Shown here piece after piece: positions 3,448 to 31,157 of a DNA stretch of 31,606 nucleotides. The translations under genes were made by a program, and so were the position numbers. The stretch is from a virus. Each line of letters begins with the position of its first letter. The stretch's first letter is position 1. The DNA lies in IMG/VR virus record IMGVR_UViG_3300021197_000677, positions 1-31,606 of that record; one strand, written 5' to 3'. The notes under the pieces were generated by a model that had not been told where the DNA came from, made no database searches, and saw nothing but the letters and a program-made list of their open reading frames with translations.

Positions 3448-3673
3448 GGCGGTTGATGAATTAATTAAAGTTGCCAAAGAAGAAATAGTAGATACAGACG
3501 AAGACATATCAGCTGACAGATTAAAAAATGCAGCAGCAACTAAAAAGCTTGCTATATTTGACGCGTTTGAAATATTAAATAAAATACAAGACGAACAGAA
3601 CATGCTTGATGGTGTGGTAAAAGAAGATAAACAAGAATCTTTTGGTGGTTTTGCAGAAAGAAGATCTAAGTAA
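3401..3673 (+). CDS. Small terminase subunit candidate
   Basis: 90 residues, helical and charged, with the stretch ISADRLKNAAATKKLAIFDA (about 45-64) in the middle and an acidic C-terminus. I recall comparable short proteins directly upstream of large terminases in Bacteroidota phages. The ATG at 3401 lies 47 bp inside the preceding gene; no later ATG leaves the conserved-looking part intact, so I keep it. The stop TAA shares its last base with the terminase ATG (TAATG), so the two are probably co-translated. If it is the small subunit it would recognise phage DNA for packaging, but it is shorter than classical TerS proteins and has no clear DNA-binding motif. Assignment is mainly by position. 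Confidence 0.45.
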   Translation: MNIKDKKKNIIQAGYKAVDELIKVAKEEIVDTDEDISADRLKNAAATKKLAIFDAFEILNKIQDEQNMLDGVVKEDKQESFGGFAERRSK

Positions 3674-9899: not shown

Positions 9900-11396
9900 A
9901 TGGCAGCAATTACTCCAGGTGCGGGTGGATCGTTAAATGCGGTTCCTTCGCCAATTAAGAGTGCTATATCTACTAATTATTTGGATTTTACTTCTTCAGA
10001 CATTGACGGTAACGGAAATGCAGGTTGGGCACAGCAGTATCTACCTGATTTGATAGAACAAGAAGCAGAGGTTTACGGTAAAAGAAATATCTCTGGTTTC
10101 TTATCAGCTATTGGAGCAGAAGAAGCAATGAGTTCAGATCAAGTAATATGGACAGAACAAGGTAGATTACATCTATCTTACAAAATAAGTGCAGTGAATG
10201 AATCAACTAACGTTATCACTTTAAACGGTGTCGTTGGTACTACAAACACAGCAAGTTTTTCAGCAAATGGACACGCGGTTAGAGTAGGACAAACAGTTCT
10301 AGTTTCTGATGGTCAAGCAACTCCAGTTGTATTTAGAGGTTATGTTTCAGCTGTTGCAGCTACTACTATTACAGTTTTACCTTACACAGGTGCAGCTATC
10401 AGTAATATTACTGGCTTTGCTTTAAGCGGAACAGCAGGTAGAGTTTTCGTATACGGTTCAGAGTTTAAAAAAGCTACTAACGGTATGGGTAACGATGCGG
10501 CTAATAACCCAGTACAACCTGAATTTAAATCATTTAACAACAAACCAATCATCTTAAAAGATCACTATGAGATCTCAGGATCTGATACTTCAAGAATCGG
10601 TTGGGTTGAAGTAAGTGCAGAAGATGGAACTTCAGGTTACTTATGGTATCTAAAAGCAGAAGCGGAAACTAGATTAAGATTCGCTGATTACTTAGAGATG
10701 GCCTTAGTTGAAGCAGAAAAAACAACTGTATCTGCAGATGGTAGTGCTACAGAAATTACTGATAGCCTAGGAACAGCATCAGGTACTGAAGGTTTATTCT
10801 CAGCTATTACAGGAAGAGGTCACACAACTTCAGGTATCGGTGGAACTAGCGCAGCAGATGATTTAGGATCTTTTGACGAGATACTTAAAAAGTTTGATGA
10901 GCAAGGTGCTATCGAAGAATACATGTTATATTGTAACAGAGACGTATCATTAGCAATTGATGATATGTTAGCAGCACAAAATTCTTACGGATCTGGTGGT
11001 ACATCTTACGGTGTATTCAGCAACTCTGAAGATATGGCGTTAAATTTAGGTTTCTCTGGATTTAGAAGAGCATCTTATGACTTCTACAAATCAGATTGGA
11101 GATACTTAAATGATGTAACATTAAGAGGTCAAGCAGCTTTCAACGATGTCAGAGGGGTTTTAATCCCAGCTGGTACTTCAACAGTTTATGATGAAGTAGT
11201 TGGATCAAGCATGAGACGACCTTTCCTACATGTTAGGTATAGAGCATCTCAAGTAGATGATAGAAGAATGAAAACATGGGTAACAGGTTCAGTAGGTGGA
11301 AACATCACATCTGATCTTGATGCTATGGAAATCAACTTCCTATCAGAAAGATGTTTAGTTGTTCAAGGAGCTAATAACTTCATGATCCTTAACTAA
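9900..11396 (+). CDS. Major capsid protein
   Basis: 498 residues, presumed HK97 fold. The N-terminal part contains WAQQYLPDLIEQEAEVYGKR (43-62) and SSDQVIWTEQGRLHLSY, which I recognise from capsid proteins of Bacteroidota phages. Residues about 105-195 look like an inserted beta domain (VITLNGVVGTTNTASF ... VLVSDGQATPVVFRGYVSA), and the C-terminal half holds the expected P- and A-domain-like stretches up to CLVVQGANNFMILN. Codon choice differs from its neighbours: isoleucine is often ATC and asparagine AAC, whereas the giant genes nearly always use ATA for Ile, as expected for the most abundant phage protein. A strong terminator follows 11 bp after the stop. Confidence 0.9.
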   Translation: MAAITPGAGGSLNAVPSPIKSAISTNYLDFTSSDIDGNGNAGWAQQYLPDLIEQEAEVYGKRNISGFLSAIGAEEAMSSDQVIWTEQGRLHLSYKISAVNESTNVITLNGVVGTTNTASFSANGHAVRVGQTVLVSDGQATPVVFRGYVSAVAATTITVLPYTGAAISNITGFALSGTAGRVFVYGSEFKKATNGMGNDAANNPVQPEFKSFNNKPIILKDHYEISGSDTSRIGWVEVSAEDGTSGYLWYLKAEAETRLRFADYLEMALVEAEKTTVSADGSATEITDSLGTASGTEGLFSAITGRGHTTSGIGGTSAADDLGSFDEILKKFDEQGAIEEYMLYCNRDVSLAIDDMLAAQNSYGSGGTSYGVFSNSEDMALNLGFSGFRRASYDFYKSDWRYLNDVTLRGQAAFNDVRGVLIPAGTSTVYDEVVGSSMRRPFLHVRYRASQVDDRRMKTWVTGSVGGNITSDLDAMEINFLSERCLVVQGANNFMILN

Positions 11397-14152: not shown

Positions 14153-17100
14153 ATGGCAGAGTTGAAAAGAAACTTTATTGGAGGTGCTATGAACAAGGAT
14201 CTTGATGAGAGGCTTGTGCCAAATGGTTATTATAGAGACGCACAAAACGTAGAAATAGTAACATCAGAAGGATCTAATGTTGGTTCTGTACAAAATATAT
14301 TAGGTAATCAAGAAAGAAAAATAAAAAAAGATGGCGTCGCGTGGTCATCAGACTACATAAGTAATCTTACAAATCCAGAGTGTATCGGTAGTATCGCAGA
14401 TACAGAAAATAATAAAATTTATTGGTTTATAGCTACATCAGATAAAAGCGTTAGTGCTATAGCTGTATATGATACAGTAAAAGACACTGTAGCTCCAGTG
14501 TTAGTTGATAAAAATAGCATATTAAAGTTTAGCTCAAGTTATTTGATAACAGGCATTAACATAATTGATGGTTTATTATTTTGGACAGATGATCAGTACG
14601 AACCAAAAAAAATAAATGTTACAGAAAATGGAGGCTTTGTTTCAACAGATTTTAATACACATACTACATTTGAAGGTGTAGCTTTTAAAGAAGAGCATAT
14701 AACAGTTATAAAACAATCACCATTAAAAGCACCTTCGCTTAATAAATCAGCTACGTTTCAATCAGGTAAAATAGGTATAGAAACAAATCCACTAGATATC
14801 ACTGAAGACTTTAGCTCAGGCTCAGTTGTACTTAAAGGTGGTGACACAAAAGAAATATCAGTTCAAATATTTCCTACAGCATGGGCAAGAGGTAGTATAA
14901 TAAGAATTAAAAGAGTTGAAATTATTAACAACAGAAAAGTTGATTTAATTATAAGGGCAACCGTAACAGATATAAGGCCTTTTGCAGGTGGAGCAAATGC
15001 CACAATAAGAATAATATCTATTGATGGTAGGATATCAGCAGGCAGCGAAGCGTATACATGTTTTCTAGAAGAAGATGATGCTTTATACAAGCTTAAATTT
15101 CCTAGATTTGCATACAGGTATAAATATAACGATGGTGAATACTCTTGTTTTTCACCATTTTCAGATGTAGCTTTTGTACCAGGTTTATATGATTATAGAC
15201 CTAGCATAGGAACAAACGTAGGTATGGAAAATAGACTAAGAGAGTTAGAAATAACTTTACCTGATATAGTTGATAGTGCTTTTCCAAAAGGTGTTAAATC
15301 GGTAGACATTTTATATAAAGAGTCTAACAGTAATAATGTAAGAGTAGTTACAACTTTAAAAAATAACGAGAACACATATATATTAAATAGAGAAATTTTA
15401 AAGTCATTAGTTGAATCAAATCAATTAACAAGACCATTTGATGCTGTACCTAAAAAAGCAAAAGCCCAAGAGCTTATAGGTAATAGAATTGTGTATGGTA
15501 ACTACAAAGAAGGGTATGATACAAAAGATCCTGTAATAATAGCTGATCAAACATCAAGCAACATTATTGAGTCAGAAGATTTTACATACGTAACGGGCAC
15601 ACGAAAGCTTGTATTATCACCAGATAAATTTTCTGAGTTTCCAATACAAGGTCAAGATGTAACGGTCCTAGATGTAAATAATAATGAATTACCCTTTGAC
15701 CAATACCCTAGACTAATAAACAAACAAGCAAACGAAACGTCTTTATTTTTTACTGATACACAACCTGCAGCTGGGACTATCACAATACAATATGATAGAA
15801 AAAATAGAGGTATACCATCTGTCAAGTCACAAAGAAATTATCAACTTGGTCTTGTATATCAAGATAAGTACGGAAGACAATCACCTGTGTTTACAGATAA
15901 AGACGCTTCAACTTTTATTGAAAAGAAAAACTCAGCACTTAAAAATAAACTTATTGGTAGTGTAGAAAGTGATGCACCTGACTGGGCAACACATTATAAA
16001 TGGTTTTTAAAAGAAGGTGCTAGTGAGTATTACAATTTAGTGTTAAGTAATTTTTATACAGCTGAAGATGGTAACATATGGTTAAGTTTTCCTTCAGCAG
16101 AAGTTAATAAGATTAAAACAGGAGATTTTATAGAGTTAAAAAAGAAACACGACATTGAGGAAGTTGTTGAAGATATCGTAAAACTAAAAGTACTAGATAT
16201 AGCACTAGAGCCACCAAAGTTTGTTGAGTTTGAAAGAGTACAAATACATAGTGAAGATGTTGATACATCAGGACCATGTACAGTAGGTTTATCAACATTT
16301 GAATTTAGTGGTGGTTCAAAAGACTTCACGACATTAAATGACAGGCTTAACGTAAGTACAAGAAGAGTTGTTAGGTTTACAGATGGTACAGGTAGTGACA
16401 AAAAAGTATCAAAGTTTTATACTGTTGTTGGTTACAAAATGCTTACAGGTAACAGGTATATATTAACATTAGACACAGCTATAGTTGAAGCTGATAATTT
16501 TCTTGTAACCGCTACAACACCAACATTAGAATTATTTGAGCTGCAAAATAGAAGAGGCGCAGAGCTTAGTGGTAAGTTTTTTGCTAAAGTTGAAGACAGT
16601 AAAGAGATAGTAGAAAATATAAAAATACCACTAGCAGTAGAAGAAGACCGCTTAGTAATTCAAACGTTACCAGAAACAGAATCAGTGGGTATCGTAGAAA
16701 ATCAAACAGCGTATAAGGGTGGTAGTACGCTTACGCCAACAATAACGTGGCAGTTAAGCCGTAATAATGATAGAGAAACATTTACTTCTAACAAGCCTTA
16801 TGATATAACTACTCATCCTATAAACTTATCAAGCAGTAAAAAGCATACACACCCTACAACTAATAGCTCATATTTTGGTTTAACATTTTACAACTTAGGC
16901 GCTAATTTTCCATCTGCAGATAATGACGTTCCAGCAGCTATACAAAACTACATGAACAATTTACCAGAAAATTACCAAGGTTTTAAAAATTTAGTAACTG
17001 GAACTAAAATAAAATTTGCTAATGACAGTGGTGTAACAAGCGCAACATACGAAATAGTGTTTGATCCTATTAATGGTGATTTTAAAAATTTTTGGAATAA

Positions 17101-20100
17101 AGATAGTATAGGAACTTTAGAAAATTATTTTACTAGAATATGGAAAATAAAATTAATTGATACTGAAGAAGAGCCTTACCAAGAAGAACCTTTGTTTTTT
17201 AGTGGCTCAGCAGCAACAAGAATATATATAATGACTAAAGAAGAGCAGCCAATAACTGGTAGTGAAGTGCAAGTTGCATCGCCTGCTGTTTTTGAAACAG
17301 AGCCCGCAGAGCTAGCTGATTTAGATTTATATCACGAAATATCTGATGCAATAGGTATTGTTAAAATAGGTAGTACATTAAAAGGAACTGATGCTAAGGT
17401 GGCAAGCGTTGACATGGCAGATAGAAAAATAACACTTGATCGTATAGTAACTGGTATAACAAACAACGAAACAAAAACGTTTGTTGATACTAACGGCTTT
17501 GAAACAGATATAGTAACAGTAGGAATATCATCAGCCACAGAAAATGCCGGTGGTAAAACAGTTATTAACGTAGCAAATGGTGGTCACGTTGGTAGTGATA
17601 TCTTGTCATGGTTTAATTGCTTTACATTTGGCAACGGTATTGAATCAAATAGAATAAGAGATGATTTCAATCAGGTGTTTATTGACAAAGGGCCAAAGGT
17701 TTCTACAGTACTTGAAAGAGAAGTTGTTGAAGAACATAAGAAAGCAAGCTTAATATATTCAGGTATATATGTTAATAAAAATGGTATAAACGAAACCAAT
17801 CAATTTTTAATAGCAGATAAAATAACAAAAAACTTAAATCCAGAATATGGATCAATACAAAAGTTAGAAGCAAGAGACAGTAACTTAATATCTTGCAATG
17901 AAGATAAAATAATAAACATAGTTGCTAATAAGGATGCTATATTTAATGCTGATGGTAATCCACAGCTTATAGCAAGTACCAACGTATTAGGTCAAGCAGT
18001 GCCTTATACTGGTGAGTATGGTATAAGTAAAAACCCCGAATCATTTGTTTCTTATGCTTACAGATCTTATTTTACAGACAAAGCTAGAGGTGTTGTATTA
18101 AGGTTATCAAGAGATGGCTTAACTGATATAAGTGGTAAAGGTATGTCAGATTATTTTGGTGACAACTTAAAAACCTCTACAAAACTAATAGGTAGTTACA
18201 GTGAAGATAAATCAGAATATATCTTGACATTAAATAAAGACACATCAGAGACTGTAGCATTTTCAGAATCATCAGGTGAAGGTGGTGGCTGGACAAGCTT
18301 CAGATCATACATACCAGAATCAGGTTTAAGTATTAATGACACATACTACACATTTAAAAATGGTTTGTTATACTCTCATGATAACGAAACTAGAAATACA
18401 TTTTATGGAGCTAGCGCTGTTGAGTCAAGTATAAACGTTTTGTTTAACGAAGCAAGTGACACAGTAAAGAGCTTTAAAACATTAGCATATGAAGGGTCAC
18501 AACAGAAGAGATTTAGATATTTAGGTACTATTGATAGTGTTGAATATACCGCCGCTGATAACTTAACGTTAGCAAGGTTGATTGAGCTTGCACCAGATAC
18601 TACAAGTGAATTTAATTCACTTAGCGCTCAAGAAAGACAAGCAGGTTGGTATTTAGATAGCATGACAACTGATCTACAATCAGGTAACATACAAGAGTTT
18701 ATTGGTAAAGAAAATAAGTTTTATAATCACCTGCGTGGTGACTCATTAACCGATGCTAACCTAGATGCCTCAGAATTTTCAGTGCAGGGCTTGGGTGTAG
18801 CAGCAGCGGCTGAAGGTGACGCAGATGGTGGCAACGTTGGTAGCCAAACACAGGGTAACGTATCAATAACAATAGCTGGGTTGACAAATAATAATCTTGA
18901 AATAAATGGAACACCATCAGGTTATTCTGCTAACAGCACTAACGATACGTTTACTAAAGCGTTTGCAGCATCAACAGAGATAAGCACTGTAACACTGCAA
19001 GTAGATTTAGATGCTTTATCAGGATTTGATTTACCATCATCACTTACTATAAGTGGTAACGCGACGGCGTCATATAATTCAACAACGGGTGTTGTTACAT
19101 TTACATTAAACCTAAGTGGAACAATTGGTGCTGACGGACACACAGAAACAATAACAATAACATCAGCTGCTACAGCTACAAAGAACTCGGTGGCTGGTAA
19201 CTACATAATACAAGCATCACCACTTTTTGTTGTAAGTACAGACACTATAAATACAACACAAAGTTATAGCGCTACAGACTACGTAGGTAACAAACAAGTT
19301 GTTGTAAGTGAATTTACTTTAAGCGCAGTACCAGCAATACCTGGTGAGCTACCTATATTTGGTGTTTATAAAGGCGGCACATACTTTGAACCTACAGCTT
19401 TTGATTTACTTCGAGTTAACACAAAAAATGATAATAGTGGTAAATATACTTTAACTATATCAGACAAAATAACAAACGCTGATAACGAAGTTATAAGTAT
19501 GAAAGTTAAAGTTGAGTATACATTTGGTAGTGAAACCACTATAACAGGTGATGATATAATCATACAAGTAGCTACGGGACTATCAAAACAAGGACCATCT
19601 TCACCTAAAATAAGATCAATAGTATTAGGTAGAAAACTAGATGATGGCACATTTGTACCGGATAATTCAAAGGTAGGTTATATTGGAGCTAACGACATAA
19701 GATATTTTAAAGTAAGTGGTGATGCCGGTGCTTTTTTTGGTTTAACAAGACTATCACCTGGTAGTACTTTAGGATTTAAACTAAATGGTAGTGCTAGTGA
19801 CATAGCTCAGGATACGCTACAAATACCTACAGAACAAAACTTTGTGTTAGTAAGCTTAGAAATGCCTGATAGAACAGGCCAAACTCAATTAGAAAACATG
19901 GGATTTTTTGTTAATAGCACGATGTTAAAAAGTGGTTTTACGGAAGTTTCATCAGGTGTACACGTACAAGTTAATCAACATGCGCTTTCTAAATTAAAGT
20001 TACAAGTTTCTAGTACTAGTTACGGTGGTACTGGATCTGCAGTAGGCACATCAAACTTTACTGTGACTGAAGATGTTGATAGAGATTTTATTAACAATGC

Positions 20101-20866
20101 AACAGTTACAGCTTTTACTGGTGATTCAACTATAGCAACACAGGTTATTACCACACAAGCACAAACTGAAAGCACATTACTAGGATCGTATGATGTATTC
20201 AGTAGGTTTATACCTTTTAAATTTGTGTTTGATCCAGGTGGTGGTTCAGATGACACTTTAATTAGACAACCTGAAGTAGAAGACTTTACACACACTGGTA
20301 ATGGTGGATCGGGTGACGATGATAACTTTGACATTGATATAACTAACTTAACAGCAACTTTAGCAACTGGTAGTGGTGGTTCTGCTACAAAGTTAACTGT
20401 GTTTGGTATGCTAATAATAAGGAAGTATGGTGATGCTACTTCAAATTCTGGTGGTAGTTTTAACTTACTTAACTTTAATCCAGATAATTTAATAACTAGA
20501 GGTAGTGGCGTTTCTAGTTTATATGTTAACTTGTTTGGAATAAGTAACATAGCAACAACTACAAGTAGAGGCACTATACCAACTACTATAAACATAGGCA
20601 CATCAGATGGAACAAATTATACAGGTACAGTTACCTTCGTACCTTTATCTTCTTTCTTTACTGGAAAAACAACTAGCGATATAACAATAAGCTACACGCT
20701 TGATGGATTTTCAAATAACGGATCCGCTACAAATCCTAGCGGTTGGACAGGAGCGTATACAGGTGGTACAGCAACTATAGCTGTAAATGTAAACCTTGAT
20801 AACGCTAGTGGTGGTAACCTAGTAGCTGGAGATGCACCGTTAACAATTAGATATGACGCAAGTTAA
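14153..20866 (+). CDS. Tail nozzle / stabilization protein (T7 gp12, P22 gp10-like) with long C-terminal extension
   Basis: 2237 residues, ATG 14153. The beginning (FIGGAMNKDLDERLVPNG at 8-25, YYRDAQNVEI, SNVGSVQNILGN) is the hallmark of podovirus nozzle or packaged-DNA-stabilization proteins, followed by short strands such as NKIYWFI and GLLFWTDDQ that suggest a beta-propeller. Later core motifs are WFNCFTFGNGIESNRIRDDF (1153-1172) and YRSYFTDKARGVVLRLSRDG (1303-1322). The core seems to end near 1550 (EFSVQGLGVA). Residues about 1560-2237 are a Thr/Ser/Gly-rich beta extension without cysteines that looks like tandem Ig-like or adhesin-like modules and could bind host receptors. It would close the head and form the tail tip. 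Minus-strand open frames inside it are shadows. Confidence 0.8.
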   Translation: MAELKRNFIGGAMNKDLDERLVPNGYYRDAQNVEIVTSEGSNVGSVQNILGNQERKIKKDGVAWSSDYISNLTNPECIGSIADTENNKIYWFIATSDKSVSAIAVYDTVKDTVAPVLVDKNSILKFSSSYLITGINIIDGLLFWTDDQYEPKKINVTENGGFVSTDFNTHTTFEGVAFKEEHITVIKQSPLKAPSLNKSATFQSGKIGIETNPLDITEDFSSGSVVLKGGDTKEISVQIFPTAWARGSIIRIKRVEIINNRKVDLIIRATVTDIRPFAGGANATIRIISIDGRISAGSEAYTCFLEEDDALYKLKFPRFAYRYKYNDGEYSCFSPFSDVAFVPGLYDYRPSIGTNVGMENRLRELEITLPDIVDSAFPKGVKSVDILYKESNSNNVRVVTTLKNNENTYILNREILKSLVESNQLTRPFDAVPKKAKAQELIGNRIVYGNYKEGYDTKDPVIIADQTSSNIIESEDFTYVTGTRKLVLSPDKFSEFPIQGQDVTVLDVNNNELPFDQYPRLINKQANETSLFFTDTQPAAGTITIQYDRKNRGIPSVKSQRNYQLGLVYQDKYGRQSPVFTDKDASTFIEKKNSALKNKLIGSVESDAPDWATHYKWFLKEGASEYYNLVLSNFYTAEDGNIWLSFPSAEVNKIKTGDFIELKKKHDIEEVVEDIVKLKVLDIALEPPKFVEFERVQIHSEDVDTSGPCTVGLSTFEFSGGSKDFTTLNDRLNVSTRRVVRFTDGTGSDKKVSKFYTVVGYKMLTGNRYILTLDTAIVEADNFLVTATTPTLELFELQNRRGAELSGKFFAKVEDSKEIVENIKIPLAVEEDRLVIQTLPETESVGIVENQTAYKGGSTLTPTITWQLSRNNDRETFTSNKPYDITTHPINLSSSKKHTHPTTNSSYFGLTFYNLGANFPSADNDVPAAIQNYMNNLPENYQGFKNLVTGTKIKFANDSGVTSATYEIVFDPINGDFKNFWNKDSIGTLENYFTRIWKIKLIDTEEEPYQEEPLFFSGSAATRIYIMTKEEQPITGSEVQVASPAVFETEPAELADLDLYHEISDAIGIVKIGSTLKGTDAKVASVDMADRKITLDRIVTGITNNETKTFVDTNGFETDIVTVGISSATENAGGKTVINVANGGHVGSDILSWFNCFTFGNGIESNRIRDDFNQVFIDKGPKVSTVLEREVVEEHKKASLIYSGIYVNKNGINETNQFLIADKITKNLNPEYGSIQKLEARDSNLISCNEDKIINIVANKDAIFNADGNPQLIASTNVLGQAVPYTGEYGISKNPESFVSYAYRSYFTDKARGVVLRLSRDGLTDISGKGMSDYFGDNLKTSTKLIGSYSEDKSEYILTLNKDTSETVAFSESSGEGGGWTSFRSYIPESGLSINDTYYTFKNGLLYSHDNETRNTFYGASAVESSINVLFNEASDTVKSFKTLAYEGSQQKRFRYLGTIDSVEYTAADNLTLARLIELAPDTTSEFNSLSAQERQAGWYLDSMTTDLQSGNIQEFIGKENKFYNHLRGDSLTDANLDASEFSVQGLGVAAAAEGDADGGNVGSQTQGNVSITIAGLTNNNLEINGTPSGYSANSTNDTFTKAFAASTEISTVTLQVDLDALSGFDLPSSLTISGNATASYNSTTGVVTFTLNLSGTIGADGHTETITITSAATATKNSVAGNYIIQASPLFVVSTDTINTTQSYSATDYVGNKQVVVSEFTLSAVPAIPGELPIFGVYKGGTYFEPTAFDLLRVNTKNDNSGKYTLTISDKITNADNEVISMKVKVEYTFGSETTITGDDIIIQVATGLSKQGPSSPKIRSIVLGRKLDDGTFVPDNSKVGYIGANDIRYFKVSGDAGAFFGLTRLSPGSTLGFKLNGSASDIAQDTLQIPTEQNFVLVSLEMPDRTGQTQLENMGFFVNSTMLKSGFTEVSSGVHVQVNQHALSKLKLQVSSTSYGGTGSAVGTSNFTVTEDVDRDFINNATVTAFTGDSTIATQVITTQAQTESTLLGSYDVFSRFIPFKFVFDPGGGSDDTLIRQPEVEDFTHTGNGGSGDDDNFDIDITNLTATLATGSGGSATKLTVFGMLIIRKYGDATSNSGGSFNLLNFNPDNLITRGSGVSSLYVNLFGISNIATTTSRGTIPTTINIGTSDGTNYTGTVTFVPLSSFFTGKTTSDITISYTLDGFSNNGSATNPSGWTGAYTGGTATIAVNVNLDNASGGNLVAGDAPLTIRYDAS

Positions 20867-21251: not shown

Positions 21252-21950
21252 ATGGGATTTGGAGTGATGACTAGAGCAAGTAAAGACGAAACAGTAGACA
21301 CAGGACGAAAAAGCAACTTTGCATCAATGGATCCAGGGTTAAGAGCATCTGGAACAGCCGGTGTCATTGGTGGTGTAGCTGGTATAGTAGGTGGTTTGGT
21401 TGGCATGCGTGATGCTAGAAAGAAAAGAGACACTGCGTACGATAACTTTAATAAAGAATTAGGAGCACTTAAAGGTGTTGATGTAAGCAACCCGTTTACA
21501 AACATGACAAACCCTTTTGCTAATCTAACTGTAAATCAACAACAAGCACAATTTCAAGCACAGCAGGGTCAACAGGCTTTAACTGATGTATTATCACAAG
21601 CAAGAGTTGGTGTTGGTGGTAGTGGTGTTGCAGCGTTAGCACAAGCGATAGCAAATCAAAGTACACAAATGACGCAACAAGCGTCTGCCTCTATAGGTGA
21701 ACAAGAATCAAGAAATAATCTAGCAAGAGCTGAAGGTGAAATGATGAGACAAAGAGTAATAGGTCAAGGCGAACAAGGATCACAGCAACTAAGAGCTGAA
21801 AAACAATCTACAATAACAGGTTACGCATCTGATAGATTACAGTCAGCTAACGAAGCGTTAGCAGCTAAACAAGGAGCAGTGGCTCAAGGCATAGGAAGTT
21901 TAGTAGGTGGTGTTGCATCACTAGCAGGCGGCGGATTATTCAGTAGTTAA
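21252..21950 (+). CDS. Internal virion protein, T7 gp14-like (membrane-inserting ejection protein)
   Basis: 232 residues. Two glycine-zipper hydrophobic segments are visible: GVIGGVAGIVGGLVG (37-51) and GIGSLVGGVASLAGGGLF (213-230). The middle is Gln/Ala-rich and helical (VNQQQAQFQAQQGQQALTDV). This combination of size, two membrane-competent ends and Gln-rich helix, and its place first in a row of three ejection-type genes, matches T7 gp14, which forms the outer-membrane part of the ejection channel. The 49-bp gap before it is A/T-rich and shows no clear promoter or terminator. Confidence 0.65.
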   Translation: MGFGVMTRASKDETVDTGRKSNFASMDPGLRASGTAGVIGGVAGIVGGLVGMRDARKKRDTAYDNFNKELGALKGVDVSNPFTNMTNPFANLTVNQQQAQFQAQQGQQALTDVLSQARVGVGGSGVAALAQAIANQSTQMTQQASASIGEQESRNNLARAEGEMMRQRVIGQGEQGSQQLRAEKQSTITGYASDRLQSANEALAAKQGAVAQGIGSLVGGVASLAGGGLFSS

Positions 21951-21963
21951 CAAATAAAATAAT

Positions 21964-23973
21964 ATGGCATTTTTTAAAGAAAAAAGAACAGGTAGTTTAA
22001 ACACAACAACAGCGGTTAACTGGGGTGGACTCATAAGCGAGTCTATGGATCTTAGCGTGTTAAGTAATTATTTAGCAGAGCAGCAAACACAGAGAAGAAA
22101 AGATTTAGAAAATGCTCCAAAGATGTTTGATACTACATTAGTAAAGCTTGAACCAGCTTTAAGAGCTGAAGTAGATACTTTATATGAAGAGTATGTTTCT
22201 AACATAAACTACATACAGGGTAGACCATCAAACAGGTCAGACGTGGATGCTAAAAGAAAAAGAAACTCTGAAATACTAAAACACATATCACAATACGAAT
22301 TAGGTATACAAAATTTAGAAAACAACGAAAAGTTATACGACGAAGATTACACTCAGTTTCTACCAACATCTTATAATAATTATGATGGTGGTACTAGGGG
22401 TTTAAAGCTTCACAATGCTTATATTGATTTAATAGATGGTAGTTGGAAGCAGGGCACTTCAGATGTTGTTGAGGACGTAATACCACAAGGTGGTAAAGTA
22501 ATGGTAAAGATAGTCGGTGAAGACGAGCTTATAGATGCTAATGATTTATCACCATTTCCACAGCCAAGCGCACAAGTTAAGACTGGTGTGTTTGATCCAT
22601 TAGCAGGGTTAGGCGCTTTGTCAATACAAGAAAATGGTGACGTACTAGCAACTGAATCACTCGATGATATATTTAATAGTGTTACTAATATGAAGTTCAA
22701 TGATATTAGGGGCGTTTTAAATTATGACATACCATTATCAAGAACAGACTTACGAAGTAAGTTTGGTGGAAAATCTTCTATATCTGCTATGGATGACGAG
22801 GACTACCTTAATATTTATAAAAAATATATTGGTGGTGATGGAACTGAAAAAAACTGGAAAGGATTTTATGATGCTGGTACTAGAGAAGAAAATGGTATGA
22901 CCTTTAAAACAAACGAAGAAACTGGTCAGCAATACACACAGTACGAACTAAACGAAGAACTTAAAAATTTTACACAAGACTGGGTACAAAAAACTGGTCA
23001 ACAAATTATTGATGCTGGCGCGGCATTTAGACCTGTAGATAAAGAGGATAATAGAATTCCAATATTTGGTGGGGTAACCGCAGAAAATAGAGTACAAAGA
23101 ATTGAAGGTGGTATAGATTTTATAGAAGAAATACATGAAATAACTAAGACAAAAACTGAAAGTCCTTTAGGCACTGACGCTTACAAAGATCTATTCTTAG
23201 AAAATCTTGTTAATCGCTTAGATCAGATAACTACTGATGGTGAGTGGGATGCAAGCAGGAGGTACACAAGTATAGAAGAAGCAGAGCAAGACGCGTTAAA
23301 CAACTTAACTAGTGAACAATTGATATTAGCTCTTCAGAAAGATGGAACTGCGATTGATGAAGATGAAGATGAAGCACTATTAAACGCAATTAGTGTACCT
23401 GATACTAAAAATTTAACTGAGAAACAGTTAAAACCAATTATGAAATCTTTATTTATATTTAAAGATGAAGCAGGTAAAGAGCATGATCTTGAAGATTTAG
23501 TAGTTGGAGGCTCTAGATATGATAAAGATAATATTACTGGTAAGCTCACACCAGTAAGAACAAATTTATTCCGCGATTTACTTCCAAATGAAGACATTGA
23601 TCTTAATAAATATAAATTTGAAGCAATTTATGAAGGAAAATACTTAAAAGGGTTTACTAAAGAATTTGATGAGTTAATGGCACAAACAAAATCTGAGTTT
23701 GTACCTAATGTTAGGAACGGTATATTTAGAAATGTTTTATCAAGAGGTATGATAGGTGTTGGTAGTGCTGATCTTATAGTAAAACATATAGACAAGAATG
23801 ATCTTATAACGTATCACGCTATAGATATATTTAGAGGTGATGTTAACTTCACAGCAAATGAAGACTCAGGTATAAGACTTAGTGAAACAACACACATAGA
23901 TCCTGATGTATTACTTAAAAGAGGAATAACTAGATATAGCACGAAATATAAAAAAGGTGGAGTAAACGATTAA
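21964..23973 (+). CDS. Internal virion protein, T7 gp15 position
   Basis: 669 residues beginning MAFFKEKRTGSLNTTTAV. The first 130 residues are helical and charged (LSNYLAEQQTQRRKDLENAP, ALRAEVDTLYEEYVSNINYI); the rest is mixed and acidic. No hydrophobic segment, signal peptide or enzyme motif is visible. It lies between the gp14-like and the giant protein with gaps of 13 and 2 bp, so a stoichiometric partner in the periplasm-spanning ejection tunnel is likely. Identity with gp15 is by gene order and size (T7 gp15 is similar in length), not by a recognised motif. Confidence 0.55.
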   Translation: MAFFKEKRTGSLNTTTAVNWGGLISESMDLSVLSNYLAEQQTQRRKDLENAPKMFDTTLVKLEPALRAEVDTLYEEYVSNINYIQGRPSNRSDVDAKRKRNSEILKHISQYELGIQNLENNEKLYDEDYTQFLPTSYNNYDGGTRGLKLHNAYIDLIDGSWKQGTSDVVEDVIPQGGKVMVKIVGEDELIDANDLSPFPQPSAQVKTGVFDPLAGLGALSIQENGDVLATESLDDIFNSVTNMKFNDIRGVLNYDIPLSRTDLRSKFGGKSSISAMDDEDYLNIYKKYIGGDGTEKNWKGFYDAGTREENGMTFKTNEETGQQYTQYELNEELKNFTQDWVQKTGQQIIDAGAAFRPVDKEDNRIPIFGGVTAENRVQRIEGGIDFIEEIHEITKTKTESPLGTDAYKDLFLENLVNRLDQITTDGEWDASRRYTSIEEAEQDALNNLTSEQLILALQKDGTAIDEDEDEALLNAISVPDTKNLTEKQLKPIMKSLFIFKDEAGKEHDLEDLVVGGSRYDKDNITGKLTPVRTNLFRDLLPNEDIDLNKYKFEAIYEGKYLKGFTKEFDELMAQTKSEFVPNVRNGIFRNVLSRGMIGVGSADLIVKHIDKNDLITYHAIDIFRGDVNFTANEDSGIRLSETTHIDPDVLLKRGITRYSTKYKKGGVND

Positions 23974-23975
23974 AT

Positions 23976-26900
23976 ATGAAAGACTTAGCAGTAATATATA
24001 GTAAATTACATAGAGAAAAGCTACTAGGTCAAGACATAGACTTAGACACGTTTTTAAACGCGTACAATAACGATCCTGAGTTTAAATCTCAGGTAGATCA
24101 GTACAGACAATCGCTTGAACAACAGCGACTTCCGTCAAAAATCAAAGCAAAACAACCAGTAGAAACAGATAATATATTAGATAGTATACCTATTATTGGT
24201 GACTTTTTATCTGATATGGTTAAGTACACAGTAGGTGGTGCTAAAGCAGGTATGTCTGCTGATGAGAGTATTGCGTTAATGAAAAAGGTTTTTGGCGAAA
24301 ATAAAGCCACTGATGATGAAATATTAGAGTACATACAAGCTTACAATGAAATGGCAGATCCTAATACTGTAACTGAGGAGATGCAGAACTATCAAAGAAT
24401 ATACGAAGAAGAAGGTAAAAGTACTTTTGGTGTTATCAAAGGTTTGTTAAACAACCCTACTGTAATGCCTGGTTTATTATTACAATCACTATCTACACAA
24501 GCAGCGTCAGCGTTGTCTTCAAAAGAAGTTGCAGCCGCTGGTTTAGCAGGTGCTGGTGCTGGTGGTTTAACAGGTGCAAAAATTGGTGGTAAAGCAGGAG
24601 CTTTAACTGGTGCTATAGCTGGTGGTATGGGTGGTTTAGCAACAGGTATGGAAGCAGCATTAACATTTGGTGAGCTATTAAAAGAAGAAGTTGGCGAAGG
24701 TAATTTTAATTTAGAGAGTGTTAGAGCTGTATTAGATGATCCTGATAAAGCTAATGACTTTGTACAAAGAGCATTAAAAAGAGGTTTAACTATAGGTGCA
24801 ATAGAAACCCTAACAGGTGGTATAGCAGGTAAAGCAACTAGATTAATTAGTAGAGCAGGTAAAGGCACGGGTACAGCATTAACCACCGGTTTAACTATAG
24901 AGGCTGCTGGTGGTTCATTAGGTGAAGTTGCTGGGCGTTTAGCGGCTGAACAAGAAATGGATACTTCAGAAATAATTCTTGAAGGTATAATAGGTAAGGG
25001 TAACAACCTAGTTAATGTAGTTTCTAACTTAACAAAGCCAGGTGATTATTCTATAAACGGCGAGAAGTTTAGTGGAACAGAGTTTGTTAATAAGTTAAAC
25101 CTTATGGAAGCTGAAACACTTAGAAACGTAGATATTAAAATTGAAAATGATGAAGCTATACAAGGTCTTGTAAATGAAAAAAGACAAGAAGCTTTGTATG
25201 ATATAGCAATAGGTGAAGAGGTTACTGATATAAAAGATAGACAGGAAATAATAAACCTAGAAAAACAATACGCAAAAATAAAAGATCAGACAAGTGTAGC
25301 TGGAAATATTAAAGCTGCTGAAATAAAAAACAAAATTAAAAACGTACTTGATAAATACAACGGTAAAGCTACAGCTAATGATGTTATTGCTAATGGAGAG
25401 TATATTAGAAAAACACAAAACCTATCAGGTAATTTAGCAAAAACAGAAGCGTTTGCAAAGTTTTTAAAAATAGGCTTTAAGTCTATGTCTAATGAAGAAT
25501 ACATAAACTTTATAGATGAGTATAACACTAAGCATAAAACAAACTTTGATGCTGCTGGTGAAGGAAAGATAATACAAGATGCTAATACTGGTGAGCAACT
25601 AATAGTTATAAATAAAGATGAGGCAATGAAAAGTGATCAGTTTACAGTTGGTCAACATGAGTTGCTACATGGTTTATTACATCAAACACTTAAGAACAAT
25701 GATGAAACGGCTATTACATTAGGACAAGAGCTAGACAAGTATCTAAACAAAATAAATGTAAAGGAATTAAAAAACAGTAGGTTTAGTGAAAGATTACTAG
25801 CATATAAGCAAGCTGTAAAAGATAATAAAATAACAGAAGCTGAAAGATACGAGGAGGTATTAACACTTACATCTGAAGCTATGGCTAATGATGAACTTAA
25901 ATATGATCAAACAACTTTTCAAAAACTAGCTGATATATTAAGACAGTTTCTAAGAAAACACTTTAATGTTAACATGGAGCTTAATACAGCTGAAGATGTT
26001 TTTAATTTATTAAAAGATTACAACAAGAGTTTTGAAGAAGGTAAATTATATAAATCATTTGGTAGGCTTTCAAGCAATGCTTTACAAGGAAAATTAATAA
26101 GTGAACCAACTTTACAAAAAGTTAAAACAATACAAGCTAAAAACAAACTTGTAGATTATACGTTAACAGACTCGCAAAGAAAAACATTAGTAAACGAAAC
26201 ATATGCAAGAAAAGGTATAGCAGCTGCTGATGATGTAATACCATTTTACATGTCTAAGGTAGAAGCTGTAGTCAATCAAAGAAGAGATTACTCAATGTCT
26301 GATTTAGGTTTCTCTGATATAGCTGAAGAGAAAAACGACATAGTTATGGATACAATGTATAATTTGTTGTTACACGCTAGAGGTTTTAAAAGTAATTTAA
26401 ATAACGACTTTGATGCTTGGATAAACTCATACATAGTACAGAAGTTTGGTACAGCTGTAAAAAGACTACAAAGAAAAGAAACTAAAATAACTGAAACGCA
26501 AGAAAGAAAAGCAAAACAACAAGGTACGTTAGATACTATAACAGAACAAGCAACAACAAGTATTAGTGACAAAATTAAAATAGATCCTAAGGTACAAGAT
26601 AAACTTAATGAGGTTGTTAAAAATCAAGTAACTAACATTATAAAGCAAATGACTATTGGCACAAAGCCGCGTGTTGCTAAACTTAATTTACAAGATACAT
26701 TTAGACAAGCTATAAGAAAAGATTTAAAAAATACAATAAAGAAAAAAGAAGTTTACAAAAAGTTTTTAACAGACAACTTTGAAACATACTTTAATGATGT
26801 TAATGTTGAAACGTTAAACAAAAGATTTAGAGGTGATAAAAGTAATCCTGATTTATTTGTAAAACCTACAGGAAAGCGAGTTATAAAAACAGCGACATCA

Positions 26901-29900
26901 CAACCTCAACTATTTGAAAAGCAACCTTTCTCTGAAGTTAAAAAAGGTTTAGATGATTATTTCATAAATGTATCACCTCAAAACGTAAGTAATAGAAAAG
27001 ATAAAATAGTAGAAGAAATATCTAACTATATGGCATTTGAACTTGCTAGACAAATTACATCATCACCAGATATATTTAATGTTGTAGATGAAATAGGTAT
27101 AACTAAGCTAGATAATATAAATAAAGAGAGAGTTGAATCTATAGTTAAAGATACTAGAGACGTAACAAATATAAGAACAAAGTTAAAGATAGCTATGACT
27201 CAGCTGTCGCCGACTCAACAGAAGTATCAAAATGAAATCATAAGTGTATTTGAAAAGTATCAACCTGTTGATATGAGAGGTAATGTTTCAGATATATATG
27301 AAGCTGCAAAGAAAAGGTTTTTAGCAAAAGTACCAGAAGAAGATAGAGCAGACGTTGACGCTTTTATGAGTGATAGAGAGTATATGATAGCTAAACCAGG
27401 AACTGGTTTATTTGTTGCTAACGTAAAGAAAACACACGATAAAAAAGTAATAGATGAGCTGTATAAAGAAGACGGCGCAACAGCTCCGACAACAGAAACT
27501 CAAGTAAAAGAAACAACTGATCAAGCTATTAGAGTAATTAAAAGCATACCACCCCAAACACTCAAACAAATATTCGGTGAGAAAATTACACTAGAAAACT
27601 TAACGTTTGTAGGCTTAAAAGATACTAACATGGGTATAGATGGTTTACCTTGGACGCTTGACGCTCAAAAGAAAAAACCTAATTATGTGCCAGATATACA
27701 GACAGACAAACCTTACAAGTATGGATCAAACGCTAATCCGTATCTTATTAAAGCTCTAGATGTATTATACGATCAAATTAGTAAGGCAGATAATCCAAAT
27801 AATAAACCAGATAAACTATGGGATAGTTTAGGTATTGATAAAAGCTGGAACTTTAAAGATTATGCACCTATAAATAAATCAACTGGATTGATAGCTAAGA
27901 TATCAAAAGACTTAGCATCCAACTCAAGAAATAATCAGCAAGAAATAATAGATAAGTATAAAAAAGATATAACAATAGCTAATCAAAATAATCCAAAGGT
28001 TCAGGCTTACATGCAATTTAAATTTGCTGAATCGTATAAGCAAGGTAACACAACTAACAAAGCTTCAAATGTAAGGTTGTTACAAGGAACAACAAACGCA
28101 ACAGCATCATTTGTTAAAGCTCTAGCTAAAATAAAATATATACATGTATTAAACGGTCAGTCTCAATCAGCTCCAACATCTAGTAGTTTATGGGGTTACG
28201 TAGAACACTTAAAAGAAAACGCTAACACATTAACTGATTTTAACGAATTAAACATAAAATACTATAACGACGAAATAACGCAAGATGAATACATGAAGCA
28301 AGCGTTAGATTTAGCTGGTGAAATGGAAATTAGTTACAACGATACAGACTTGTCAGTTGAACAGTTAGATAAAAAGTTTAATAAAAACTTAGGCCAAGGA
28401 GATTTTAAACTCAGAGCTTTAGATCCTAAAGACTTAGATAACTTTATTAACATTGAAACTGGCAAGTCAGCCAACGTAGAGTTAGCAGAGAAAATGTTTT
28501 TCATGGAAGAAAATAATCAGCTAATGGTTAGAAATGGTAAAAGATCTTTGCAAAAAATTTCTCTTCCGAACGAACAAATGAAAAGATTTAAACAATATGA
28601 TAAAGCTTTAGAGATGGCTAATCGTTTAAACCCACCAGAAAAAGGTATAAGTATACTGGACTTTGATGACACGTTGGCTAAAACTAAATCTAAGGTACTT
28701 TACACGCTTCCTGACGGCACGAAAGGTAAAATAGATGCTACAGACTTTGCAGCTGAATCAGCAGCGTTAGAAGCTGCAGGAGCAAAGTTTGATTTTAGTG
28801 AGTTTAGTAAGGTAAAAGCAGGTAAAAAAGGACCGTTCTTTAGTAAGGCTTTAGATCTTATAGGAAAGTATGGAAACAAGGATATGTTTATACTAACAGC
28901 AAGACCTCAAGAGGCTGCACCTGCTATACAGAAATTCTTAAAAGGTGTTGGGTTAAATATAAAACTTAAAAATATTATAGGTTTAGAAGATGGCAGGCCA
29001 GAGGCTAAAGCAGAGTTTATAGTAGATAAAGCTGCTGAGGGTTACAACAACTTTTTATTTGCTGATGACGCTGTTAAAAATACAATTGCTGTTAACGAAG
29101 TGTTAGAAAGTTTAGATATTAATGGTAAAGTATATCAAGTTAAACAAGACTTCAGACAAAACATGGATAAAAAGTTTAACAAAATACTAGAGCAAACTAA
29201 AGGTATAGACCGTAACGCTACATTTTCTGATGCTGCTGCTAGAGTACGTGGCGCTTTAAATGATAAGTTCTGGTCAAGATTATTTGTACCACCAGGTGCT
29301 GATGATTTTAAAGGCTTAATGTATTACTTCATGGGCAAAGGTAAACTAGGTGAGGCACACGCTGAGTTTTTCAATGAGACATTATTTAAACCATTTGCTA
29401 AAGCAACTAAAGATATTAACGCAGCTAGACAGAGAATAGTTAATGAGTATTCACAACTAACAAAAGACATGCCAGCTGTAAAGAAAATGTTGCTTACAGC
29501 TACAGGTTATAGTAACTTTACATACGATCAAGCTATAAGAGTTTACTTAATGAATCAAAATAATATTGATATACCTGGTTTATCAAAAAGAGATTTAACA
29601 GCTTTATTAGATATAGTAAAGTCTGATTCTAGTTTAGTAGCTTACGCCGATAAAGTTTCAGCTATAACAAGGCTAGATGAAGGCTACGTACAAGCTGATG
29701 ATATTAATTGGTTAGCATCAACTATAGAATTAGATTTAAAATCTATAACAACCATAACTAAAAGAGCAGAGTATCTTAAAGAGTGGAAAGCAAATAAAGA
29801 TGCTATATTTACACCCGATAATCTAAACAAAATAGAAGCTGTATACGGTGCTAGTATAAGATCAGCGTTAGAAGATTCATTGTATCGTATGGAAATAGGT

Positions 29901-31157
29901 ACTAATAGACCTACAGGCCAGAGCAAGATAGCTAGTGAATTTACTGACTGGGCTAATGGTGCTGTTGGTAATATAATGTTCTTTAATGTAAGATCTTCTG
30001 TGTTACAAACAATATCGTTTGCTAACTTTGTAAACTGGAGTGACAACAACCCCTATAAATATATGAAAGCTGTTGGTAACTTTCCACAGTTTGCTAACGA
30101 TTTTGCTATGATATGGAACTCTGATTTCTTAAAAAGCAGAAGACAAGGGCTACAAACTGACGTTAACGCAGCAGAAATAGTAAATCAAGCTGCTAACTCT
30201 AAAAACAAAGTTAAATCAATTATAGCTTATATACTTGGTAAAGGTTATTTACCTACACAGATGGGTGATAGTTTCGCGATATGTATGGGTGGTGCGGGTT
30301 TCTATAGAAATAGAGTTGATACGTATTTAAAACAAGGTTTGAGTTTAAAAGAGGCAGAGTCAAAAGCATTTAGCGACATGCAAGAAACATCTGAAGACGC
30401 ACAGCAATCAGCAAGACCAGATAAAATATCACAACAACAAGCTAGTGAAATAGGTAGATGGATACTTAGTTTTCAGAACACACCTATGCAATATACAAGA
30501 ATAATAAAGAAAGCTGCATTAGATCTAGCAAACAAAAGAGGTGATTCTAAAACGCACATATCTAAAATAATTTATTACGGTGCCTTACAAAACTTAATAT
30601 TTACATCGCTACAAAATGCTATATTTGCTTTAGCGTTTGATGATGACGAAGATAAAGAAAAAGAAAAATATGCTAGAATAGCAAATGGTATGGTTGATAC
30701 TATACTAAGAGGCACAGGTATTTACGGTGCTGTAGCAGCTATGTTAAAGAACGTAGCGCTAGAGTTTGTAGATCAAAACAAAAAAGGATATAGAGCTGAT
30801 CACGCATACACAGTACTAGAGGCAGTTAACTTGTCACCAGCACTTGGTAGTAAAACTAGAAAAGTATATGGTGCTACACAAGCATATAAATTTAATAGAG
30901 ATGAAATGATATCAAGAGGTTTTCATATAGATAACCCAGCATATGAAGCTGTGGCTAATGTAACATCAGCTGCTATTAACCTACCAGTTGATAGAGCGTT
31001 AAGAATAACAGATAATATGCGTGAGGCTACTAACAAAGAAAACCAAGCTTGGCAAAGAATAGCACTTGCTCTTGGCTGGAGTACGTGGGATGTAGGTGTA
31101 GAAGGTGGACGTAGAAAAAAAGACAAAAAGAAGAAAGGCGGAGTTAATTTATTCTAA
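23976..31157 (+). CDS. Giant ejected internal virion protein (gp16-like, polyvalent) with zincin, sigma-like and HAD domains
   Basis: 2393 residues, two bases after the previous stop. Domains from the sequence: helical N-terminus; Gly/Ala-rich membrane-competent region (about 186-228, e.g. GLAGAGAGGLTGAKIGGKAG); zinc-metallopeptidase motif HELLH (561-565) with Glu634 in LTSEAMAND as candidate third ligand; a stretch at 760-850 resembling sigma-70 region 2 (DIVMDTMYNLLLHARGF, FDAWINSYIVQKF, LQRKE); a HAD phosphatase with motif I DFDDTL (Asp1562, Asp1564), motif II LTARP (Thr1641), Lys1678 or Lys1685, and motif IV FADD (Asp1697, Asp1698); and a C-terminal structural module (about 1985-2225: FFNVRSSVLQTISFANFVNW, YLPTQMGDSFAICMGGAGFY, SFQNTPMQYTR). 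The very end is Lys-rich. It is probably ejected with the DNA; the enzymatic domains could act on the wall, host proteins or nucleotides. The HAD call is strong, zincin good, sigma tentative. Confidence 0.75.
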   Translation: MKDLAVIYSKLHREKLLGQDIDLDTFLNAYNNDPEFKSQVDQYRQSLEQQRLPSKIKAKQPVETDNILDSIPIIGDFLSDMVKYTVGGAKAGMSADESIALMKKVFGENKATDDEILEYIQAYNEMADPNTVTEEMQNYQRIYEEEGKSTFGVIKGLLNNPTVMPGLLLQSLSTQAASALSSKEVAAAGLAGAGAGGLTGAKIGGKAGALTGAIAGGMGGLATGMEAALTFGELLKEEVGEGNFNLESVRAVLDDPDKANDFVQRALKRGLTIGAIETLTGGIAGKATRLISRAGKGTGTALTTGLTIEAAGGSLGEVAGRLAAEQEMDTSEIILEGIIGKGNNLVNVVSNLTKPGDYSINGEKFSGTEFVNKLNLMEAETLRNVDIKIENDEAIQGLVNEKRQEALYDIAIGEEVTDIKDRQEIINLEKQYAKIKDQTSVAGNIKAAEIKNKIKNVLDKYNGKATANDVIANGEYIRKTQNLSGNLAKTEAFAKFLKIGFKSMSNEEYINFIDEYNTKHKTNFDAAGEGKIIQDANTGEQLIVINKDEAMKSDQFTVGQHELLHGLLHQTLKNNDETAITLGQELDKYLNKINVKELKNSRFSERLLAYKQAVKDNKITEAERYEEVLTLTSEAMANDELKYDQTTFQKLADILRQFLRKHFNVNMELNTAEDVFNLLKDYNKSFEEGKLYKSFGRLSSNALQGKLISEPTLQKVKTIQAKNKLVDYTLTDSQRKTLVNETYARKGIAAADDVIPFYMSKVEAVVNQRRDYSMSDLGFSDIAEEKNDIVMDTMYNLLLHARGFKSNLNNDFDAWINSYIVQKFGTAVKRLQRKETKITETQERKAKQQGTLDTITEQATTSISDKIKIDPKVQDKLNEVVKNQVTNIIKQMTIGTKPRVAKLNLQDTFRQAIRKDLKNTIKKKEVYKKFLTDNFETYFNDVNVETLNKRFRGDKSNPDLFVKPTGKRVIKTATSQPQLFEKQPFSEVKKGLDDYFINVSPQNVSNRKDKIVEEISNYMAFELARQITSSPDIFNVVDEIGITKLDNINKERVESIVKDTRDVTNIRTKLKIAMTQLSPTQQKYQNEIISVFEKYQPVDMRGNVSDIYEAAKKRFLAKVPEEDRADVDAFMSDREYMIAKPGTGLFVANVKKTHDKKVIDELYKEDGATAPTTETQVKETTDQAIRVIKSIPPQTLKQIFGEKITLENLTFVGLKDTNMGIDGLPWTLDAQKKKPNYVPDIQTDKPYKYGSNANPYLIKALDVLYDQISKADNPNNKPDKLWDSLGIDKSWNFKDYAPINKSTGLIAKISKDLASNSRNNQQEIIDKYKKDITIANQNNPKVQAYMQFKFAESYKQGNTTNKASNVRLLQGTTNATASFVKALAKIKYIHVLNGQSQSAPTSSSLWGYVEHLKENANTLTDFNELNIKYYNDEITQDEYMKQALDLAGEMEISYNDTDLSVEQLDKKFNKNLGQGDFKLRALDPKDLDNFINIETGKSANVELAEKMFFMEENNQLMVRNGKRSLQKISLPNEQMKRFKQYDKALEMANRLNPPEKGISILDFDDTLAKTKSKVLYTLPDGTKGKIDATDFAAESAALEAAGAKFDFSEFSKVKAGKKGPFFSKALDLIGKYGNKDMFILTARPQEAAPAIQKFLKGVGLNIKLKNIIGLEDGRPEAKAEFIVDKAAEGYNNFLFADDAVKNTIAVNEVLESLDINGKVYQVKQDFRQNMDKKFNKILEQTKGIDRNATFSDAAARVRGALNDKFWSRLFVPPGADDFKGLMYYFMGKGKLGEAHAEFFNETLFKPFAKATKDINAARQRIVNEYSQLTKDMPAVKKMLLTATGYSNFTYDQAIRVYLMNQNNIDIPGLSKRDLTALLDIVKSDSSLVAYADKVSAITRLDEGYVQADDINWLASTIELDLKSITTITKRAEYLKEWKANKDAIFTPDNLNKIEAVYGASIRSALEDSLYRMEIGTNRPTGQSKIASEFTDWANGAVGNIMFFNVRSSVLQTISFANFVNWSDNNPYKYMKAVGNFPQFANDFAMIWNSDFLKSRRQGLQTDVNAAEIVNQAANSKNKVKSIIAYILGKGYLPTQMGDSFAICMGGAGFYRNRVDTYLKQGLSLKEAESKAFSDMQETSEDAQQSARPDKISQQQASEIGRWILSFQNTPMQYTRIIKKAALDLANKRGDSKTHISKIIYYGALQNLIFTSLQNAIFALAFDDDEDKEKEKYARIANGMVDTILRGTGIYGAVAAMLKNVALEFVDQNKKGYRADHAYTVLEAVNLSPALGSKTRKVYGATQAYKFNRDEMISRGFHIDNPAYEAVANVTSAAINLPVDRALRITDNMREATNKENQAWQRIALALGWSTWDVGVEGGRRKKDKKKKGGVNLF

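Follow-up and report, generated by a model that had tools for sequence, protein, structure and literature searches.

An uninterrupted open reading frame of 2393 residues with an ATG start (23976..31157, + strand) closes the structural block of the DNA analyzed here, a 31,606-base IMG/VR record that we refer to as the window and that, by this block, is a marine crAss-like podovirus. From the N- to the C-terminus its product combines a glycine-rich region, a zincin-like domain of the HExxH...E type, a sigma-70 region-2-like domain, a complete HAD active site and a helical C-terminal module of about 600 residues, and this order recurs in about 79 giant homologues from IMG/VR, whose frames reach 4134 residues. 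A preliminary description of this DNA had placed all these modules in one frame, and both the uninterrupted frame and the recurrence of the module order bear it out. The giant gene occupies the crAss cargo position, which in crAss001 is held by the RNA-polymerase-associated protein gp47. Given that a protease, a sigma-like domain and a phosphatase are joined here to a packaging-type tail, the virus may deliver a ready-made set of tools by which it directs the host RNA polymerase and does without a polymerase of its own.

To recruit homologues, we aligned the HAD and C-terminal regions of L002, L010 and the window protein in three rows, and this alignment yielded 80 further loci. Recruitment used two short patterns that lie in the HAD region, so that the HAD domain is present in the set by construction, while the co-occurrence of the zincin and sigma-like domains is informative because neither was used. 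Strong conservation is limited to the HAD domain and the C-terminal module, the middle of the protein averaging 11% column identity. A single-sequence search with the lone protein had phrog_32588 as its sole match (residues 74-467, E=5.5e-40), and corresponding searches of Pfam and the PDB recovered, respectively, no family above the cut-off and no related sequence. The single-sequence scores fall below the Pfam cut-offs, and the case for the domains rests on conservation and on agreement between homologues. Six-frame scans of the window with PF04542, PF06114 and phrog_415 gave matches inside the giant frame only. No relatives of the giant protein are encoded in the 50,697 phage records searched, and bacterial genomes scanned with the HAD/C-terminal region gave no match, so that there is no prophage or host link. 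BFVD contains direct members, for example A0A218MMX7 (46% identity) and another from Virus NIOZ-UU157, and the family is thus already in databases with its function unassigned.

The HAD domain and its insertion slot

The HAD phosphatase-type domain spans residues ~1547-1730 (28614..29165, +). Its motif I (28659-28673), motif II (TARP, 28896-28907), K1678 (29007-29009) and D1697-D1698 (29064-29069) provide the full HAD motif set named in the preliminary description, and the catalytic positions D1562, D1564, T1566, T1641, K1678, D1697 and D1698 are conserved in 70/70 homologues. The strands of the AF2 model follow the Rossmannoid order, so that the protein shows the DxDxT motif, the Thr/Ser, the Lys, the DD pair and the fold that together typify phosphatases of the HAD superfamily. 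Family searches concur: DUF2608 was matched by 33 of 47 members and phrog_415, annotated as 'polynucleotide kinase', by 32 of 42, with a window match at 28614-29021 (E=6.2e-6). The closest solved folds found with Foldseek are the Legionella HAD effectors Ceg4 and Lem4, in PDB searches where no match passes E=0.1 for either AF2 model. Taken together, the identity of this domain is virtually certain.

Between motif I and a conserved KFDFSEF stretch lies an insertion slot (28674..28784, +), which is empty in the window and holds a kinase or ART-like domain in certain relatives. Among the 66 members in which the DxDDT-to-KFDFSEF spacing was measured, 47, with the window among them, have a spacing of 41-43 residues; the remaining spacings are 86-89 (3 members), 173-178 (3), 189 (1) and exactly 241 (12). 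The 241-residue class carries an AAA_33/zeta-type kinase insert of constant cassette length (E=1.5e-11 in L010, 4.9e-13 in L027; the other members are L025, L026, L028, L029, L040, L050, L063, L065, L069 and L077). The Walker A motif of these kinase inserts reads GKG rather than GKS in L025, L027, L040 and L069. The 173-178 class holds an ART-PolyVal-like insert, assigned at E=0.0012 in L030 (the best score, below the cut-off), at E=0.04 in L074 and by sequence likeness in L070. The slot of L089 has a different insert that matches DUF6934. In a tree of residues 1640-2376, which lie downstream of the slot, the kinase state changes at least four times and the ART state three times, indicating repeated gain and loss of modules at a single site of the enzyme. 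With its exchangeable slot, this HAD enzyme, invariant in other respects, is a clean natural case of effector swapping in one active-site cap.

T4 Pnkp pairs an AAA_33-type kinase with a HAD phosphatase, and the same pairing is seen in the 12 relatives with the kinase insert. They differ from T4 Pnkp in that the HAD domain harbors the kinase as an insert and a single giant chain contains all modules; the window protein, whose slot is empty, has the phosphatase without the kinase. Because of this Pnkp-like pairing in relatives, we favor a role in end healing, in which the HAD domain, with the polynucleotide-kinase-like insert in some relatives, would remove phosphates from nucleic-acid ends and thereby repair cuts inflicted by the host. 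Alternatively, the domain might dephosphorylate proteins or nucleotides and thereby act on host signaling, as the nearness of Ceg4 and Lem4 and the DUF2608 matches would suggest. The phrog_415 matches and the AAA_33 inserts argue against this reading, to which we give a serious but distinctly less than even chance.

The N-terminal, zincin-like and C-terminal regions

The N-terminal region that matches phrog_32588 (24195..25376, +) includes, at residues 188-236 (24537-24683), a glycine zipper, the membrane-type module of the chain, as had been described. The pattern is of the GxxxG type, and the zipper region has no strong hydropathy-type TM helix. Residues 159-355 match the glycine-rich region of the giant protein of MW202828. 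An equation of phrog_32588 with gp101 of Cellulophaga phage phi38:1 was ruled out, since the two proteins do not match.

The zincin-like domain comprises residues ~485-700 (25428..26075, +). The HELLH motif noted earlier, which starts at residue 561 (25656-25670), proved near-invariant together with a third ligand, E627 (25854-25856): H561 is conserved in 67/69 aligned homologues, E562 in 69/69, H565 in 68/69 and E627 in 68/70, despite an average column identity of 12% across this slice. The Peptidase_M78 profile (PF06114) matches the window at 25590-25727 with E=2.7e-4 in the six-frame scan, below the cut-off, and was matched by 10 of 65 members, the best at 1.3e-4. In the AF2 model a three-stranded part lies between helices, the HExxH being carried by one helix and E627 by a helix further along, which agrees with the three-stranded-plus-helices zincin core described in the text of Iyer et al. 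2017 (PMC5512222). Of the zincin, HAD and sigma folds that predicted structures were expected to display, the HAD domain was recovered in its Rossmannoid order and sigma chains appeared among the Foldseek matches, each at E>0.1, but no zincin structure was among the top 50 PDB matches. Given the metal-ligand constellation and the arrangement of secondary structure, we hold the zincin identity to be very highly probable; that the zincin cuts its own chain is a more tentative proposal, somewhat short of an even chance. The profile of this domain also matches gp18 of Flavobacterium phage elemo (E=1.5e-11 in a 9-sequence set). The 3859-residue giant protein of MW202828 has two HExxH motifs, at residues 1615 and 2500; it is annotated as 'reticulocyte binding/rhoptry protein', a name that is very likely spurious. 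In crAss001 gp47 an HEAFH at residue 2157, close to the C-terminus, gives a weak match to the zincin profile.

Between the sigma-like and HAD parts lies an uncharacterised domain (27798..28580, +) with a near-invariant Glu-His pair, E1410-H1411 (28203-28208), conserved in 67/70 and 66/70 homologues, respectively. Profile searches, including the PDB, found no family or fold for it; a hit of the Glu-His region profile to a designed repeat protein, the only one in the PDB, was judged a helical artefact.

The C-terminal module (residues ~1765-2393, 29268..31154, +) agrees with the structural module proposed earlier: the AF2 model (mean pLDDT 80.8) shows nothing but helices over its approximately 600 residues, and it is the most conserved stretch beside the HAD domain. 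In BFVD the model matches many giant phage proteins (E 1e-13 to 1e-5, 10-14% identity), several of which are named 'Large polyvalent protein associated domain' or 'ART-PolyVal'. Since the module is so widespread in giant phage proteins, a role in packaging or ejection is suggested. Together with the ART-PolyVal-like inserts of relatives, these matches uphold the kinship with polyvalent proteins that had been invoked in the preliminary description. As in the polyvalent proteins of Iyer et al. 2017 (PMC5512222), several unrelated effector-type domains are joined around a zincin hub in a single giant multi-enzyme polypeptide that is presumably injected, and there are domains in common with described members: the C-terminal module is shared with annotated ones, and the ART-PolyVal-like inserts of relatives, which score below the cut-off, point the same way. 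The present family differs in its sigma-2-like domain, its HAD phosphatase and its crAss-like structural setting, which are absent from that text. A search of the article's text finds no 'sigma', 'phosphatase' or 'crAss', and 'HAD' as a separate word on three occasions, one or more of which are the verb. To the extent of that text, the combination of modules seems undescribed, in line with the earlier remark that it was not known as characterised.

The distribution of conservation might also be read as that of a protein serving mainly as an ejection channel or scaffold, whose sigma-2-like domain binds only DNA or the portal, whose zincin acts once in maturation and whose HAD domain is the sole working enzyme. 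Such a role would accord with the restriction of strong conservation to the HAD domain and the C-terminal module, the drift of the middle and the wide occurrence of the C-terminal module in phage giant proteins. Against it, the HExxH and the third Glu have stayed invariant despite that drift, and the sigma-like segment is recognisable in 60/79 giant frames by the sigma-domain search, which did not pick up the other ~19. We consider a mainly structural role unlikely, but by no means negligible.

The sigma-70 region-2-like domain

The possible sigma-70 region 2 of the preliminary description corresponds to residues 751-854 (26226..26537, +) and was supported by several approaches, the scores of which are individually weak. 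PF04542 has one match in the six-frame window (26325-26474, residues 784-833, E=4.7e-4), which is below the cut-off and partial, covering Pfam positions 21-70. Sigma70_r2 is nonetheless the most frequent Pfam family in the sigma slice, matched by 8 of 33 members. The PDB sequence matches include four sigma factors, the alignments shown spanning regions 2.2-2.3, and about 19 of the top 50 PDB matches of the 1051-residue AF2 model in Foldseek are sigma chains or sigma subunits of holoenzymes. We further compared 66 sliding windows of the protein, with their homologues, against a region-2 profile of E. coli RpoD, RpoH, RpoE and FliA by means of hhalign. The four highest scores belong to windows that overlap residues 701-911, with a peak at residues 736-876 and a top score of 22.6, as against 13.3 for the best elsewhere. 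L040 and like members retain DLQQE at the position of RpoD DLIQE. Thus, the region has the fold and sequence features of sigma-70 region 2, and we regard this identity as quite probable. A comparison of the sigma core with the phages' own stand-alone sigma in hhalign was not significant, and an HMM of the four E. coli sigma sequences had few matches in the giants, three of four inside the domain.

α-helical bundles could match one another by chance, and the helical nature of the region and the weakness of every single score would fit such an explanation. However, across 50 related records all 18 PF04542 matches fall either in a separate sigma frame of ~250 residues (12) or in the giant frame (6), with none elsewhere, and the six in giant frames lie inside the domain outlined independently by an iterative search from the window's close relatives. 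Likewise, the windows that stand out in the sliding scan, 4 of 66, all overlap this domain, and sigma factors recur among both sequence and fold matches in the PDB. A chance resemblance is therefore improbable.

Region 4, which recognizes the -35 element, was sought with PF04545 and has no match in the window, whereas 14/14 controls were matched; hence we do not file the giant protein as a sigma factor, merely as the carrier of a region-2-like domain. T4 gp55 has only a sigma-2-like domain, so that region 4 is dispensable in principle. The window protein resembles gp55 in having this domain without region 4, and differs in that the domain sits within one giant chain.

The crAss-like setting and a proposed course of entry

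The structural block runs on the + strand from TerL (3673-5886) through the portal (5889-8303, named by gene order) and the major capsid protein (9900-11396) to a muzzle protein of 2237 residues (14153..20866), which matches Pfam crAss_MUZ (2e-15) and, in tblastn, phi38:1 and the elemo phages. TerL and the capsid protein were identified by tblastn to crAss-like marine phages and are nearest to phages of Flavobacterium, Cellulophaga and Maribacter: for TerL, identity is 63% with MW202828, which comes from Manatee Spring, and 45% with the Flavobacterium elemo phages, and for the capsid protein it is 43-47% with MW202828, Maribacter phage Panino and the elemo phages. The muzzle type and the gene order are thus crAss-like, the record being a fragment without formal family assignment. 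A frame with Thr/Asn-rich repeats (NTSTTTTFNT...) at window positions 21-1427 has a strongly negative GC skew relative to the rest, and similar frames occur in G012.

After the muzzle the gene products measure 108, 232, 669 and 2393 residues. The 232-residue Gly/Gln-rich protein (21252..21950, +) and the 669-residue protein (21964..23973, +) are probable internal virion proteins, the former by size and position as phi38:1 gp99 and homologous to a 334-residue protein of L010, the latter by size and position as phi38:1 gp100 and crAss001 gp45/gp46; the upstream ejection proteins, the 669-residue one included, have no sequence homology to their equivalents in phi38:1, elemo or MW202828. The giant gene closes the block likewise in these three phages, and the annotations of phi38:1 and elemo list the gene product at this position as a structural protein. 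The gene order in crAss001 is muzzle gp44, gp45, gp46 and gp47 (2341 residues), and gp45, gp46, gp47, gp49 and gp50 were detected in its virions by mass spectrometry (Bayfield et al., PMC10172136). Because the window gene ends a structural block of the crAss type and occupies the place where crAss001 has the virion-detected gp47, we infer with fair assurance that its product is packaged as virion cargo. The preliminary description had put it at the T7 gp16 position; there is no match to a T7-like protein or record, and with crAss-like neighbors and the slot of gp47 this placement is an analogy only.

Like crAss001 gp47 (PMC10172136), the window protein follows the muzzle and the small internal proteins, is of similar size and has an HExxH, but the two have no profile-detectable homology, and gp47 is annotated as RNA-polymerase-associated whereas the window protein has the sigma-like and HAD domains. 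N4 gp50, the virion RNA polymerase (PMC12633501), is likewise a giant ejected chain that combines an HExxH domain with an extensive helical C-terminal part, but no polymerase domain is seen in the window protein, which has the sigma-like and HAD domains instead. Elemo gp18 shares the genomic slot and the zincin, and the MW202828 giant the slot and the glycine-rich region, but no HAD or sigma-like domain was found in either.

We propose that the protein is a polyvalent virion-cargo protein that would be packaged as the largest internal protein, held by its helical C-terminal module, and would exit through the muzzle with the glycine-rich N-terminus first. Once inside the host cell, the chain may be cleaved by its zincin into functional pieces, and the sigma-2-like domain would bind the host RNA polymerase and favor the first phage promoters, standing in for the virion RNA polymerase brought by other crassviruses and N4, while the HAD domain would act in end healing. 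As a full mechanism this comes close to an even prospect; the action of the sigma-like domain on the host RNA polymerase at entry, considered by itself, is rather more doubtful. More speculative still, and on balance unlikely, is that the lineage swapped an injected virion RNA polymerase for an injected sigma domain, within one self-processing chain that also carries an end-healing enzyme with an exchangeable active-site cap slot for a kinase or ADP-ribosyltransferase. First-minutes transcription by phages without their own polymerase is usually credited to strong early promoters; if our proposal is true, a sigma-2 domain delivered by the virion would offer a different solution, placed where related phages have a polymerase-associated protein.

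The related genome G012 (67.5 kb, with a 119-bp direct terminal repeat) is probably complete. It has no frame above 810 residues besides the muzzle and the giant, and neither it nor G019 has an extra frame of RNAP size. G012 encodes a 255-residue sigma factor whose relatives have Pfam matches to sigma regions 2 and 4. The presence of a sigma gene without a polymerase-sized gene thus fits use of the host RNA polymerase. The stand-alone sigma would need synthesis after entry, whereas the domain of the giant protein could act at once. That the middle of the giant is instead a very divergent virion RNA polymerase or subunit, with the sigma-like helices as part of it, would match the slot and size of gp47 and the domain association of the N4 enzyme, but is very improbable, since there is no conserved Asp triad, the Glu-His pair being the only near-invariant feature outside the zincin and HAD regions, and the profiles have no match in crAss001 gp47, gp49 and gp50; a PF00940 scan for T7-type RNAP, silent in every control genome, carries no weight here. 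Stand-alone sigma-70-type factors of ~250 residues with regions 2 and 4 were seen in L129-L138, and in L133 and G012 the upstream neighbor of this gene is a ~210-residue frame ending in an HTH-like stretch. In a near-identical phage (L003, 1172-5572) the small genes downstream of the giant, named by eye only, include a peptidase-like protein of 153 residues, lysine-rich basic proteins, a PAP2-like frame of 186 residues and, on the opposite strand, a glycosyltransferase-like frame.
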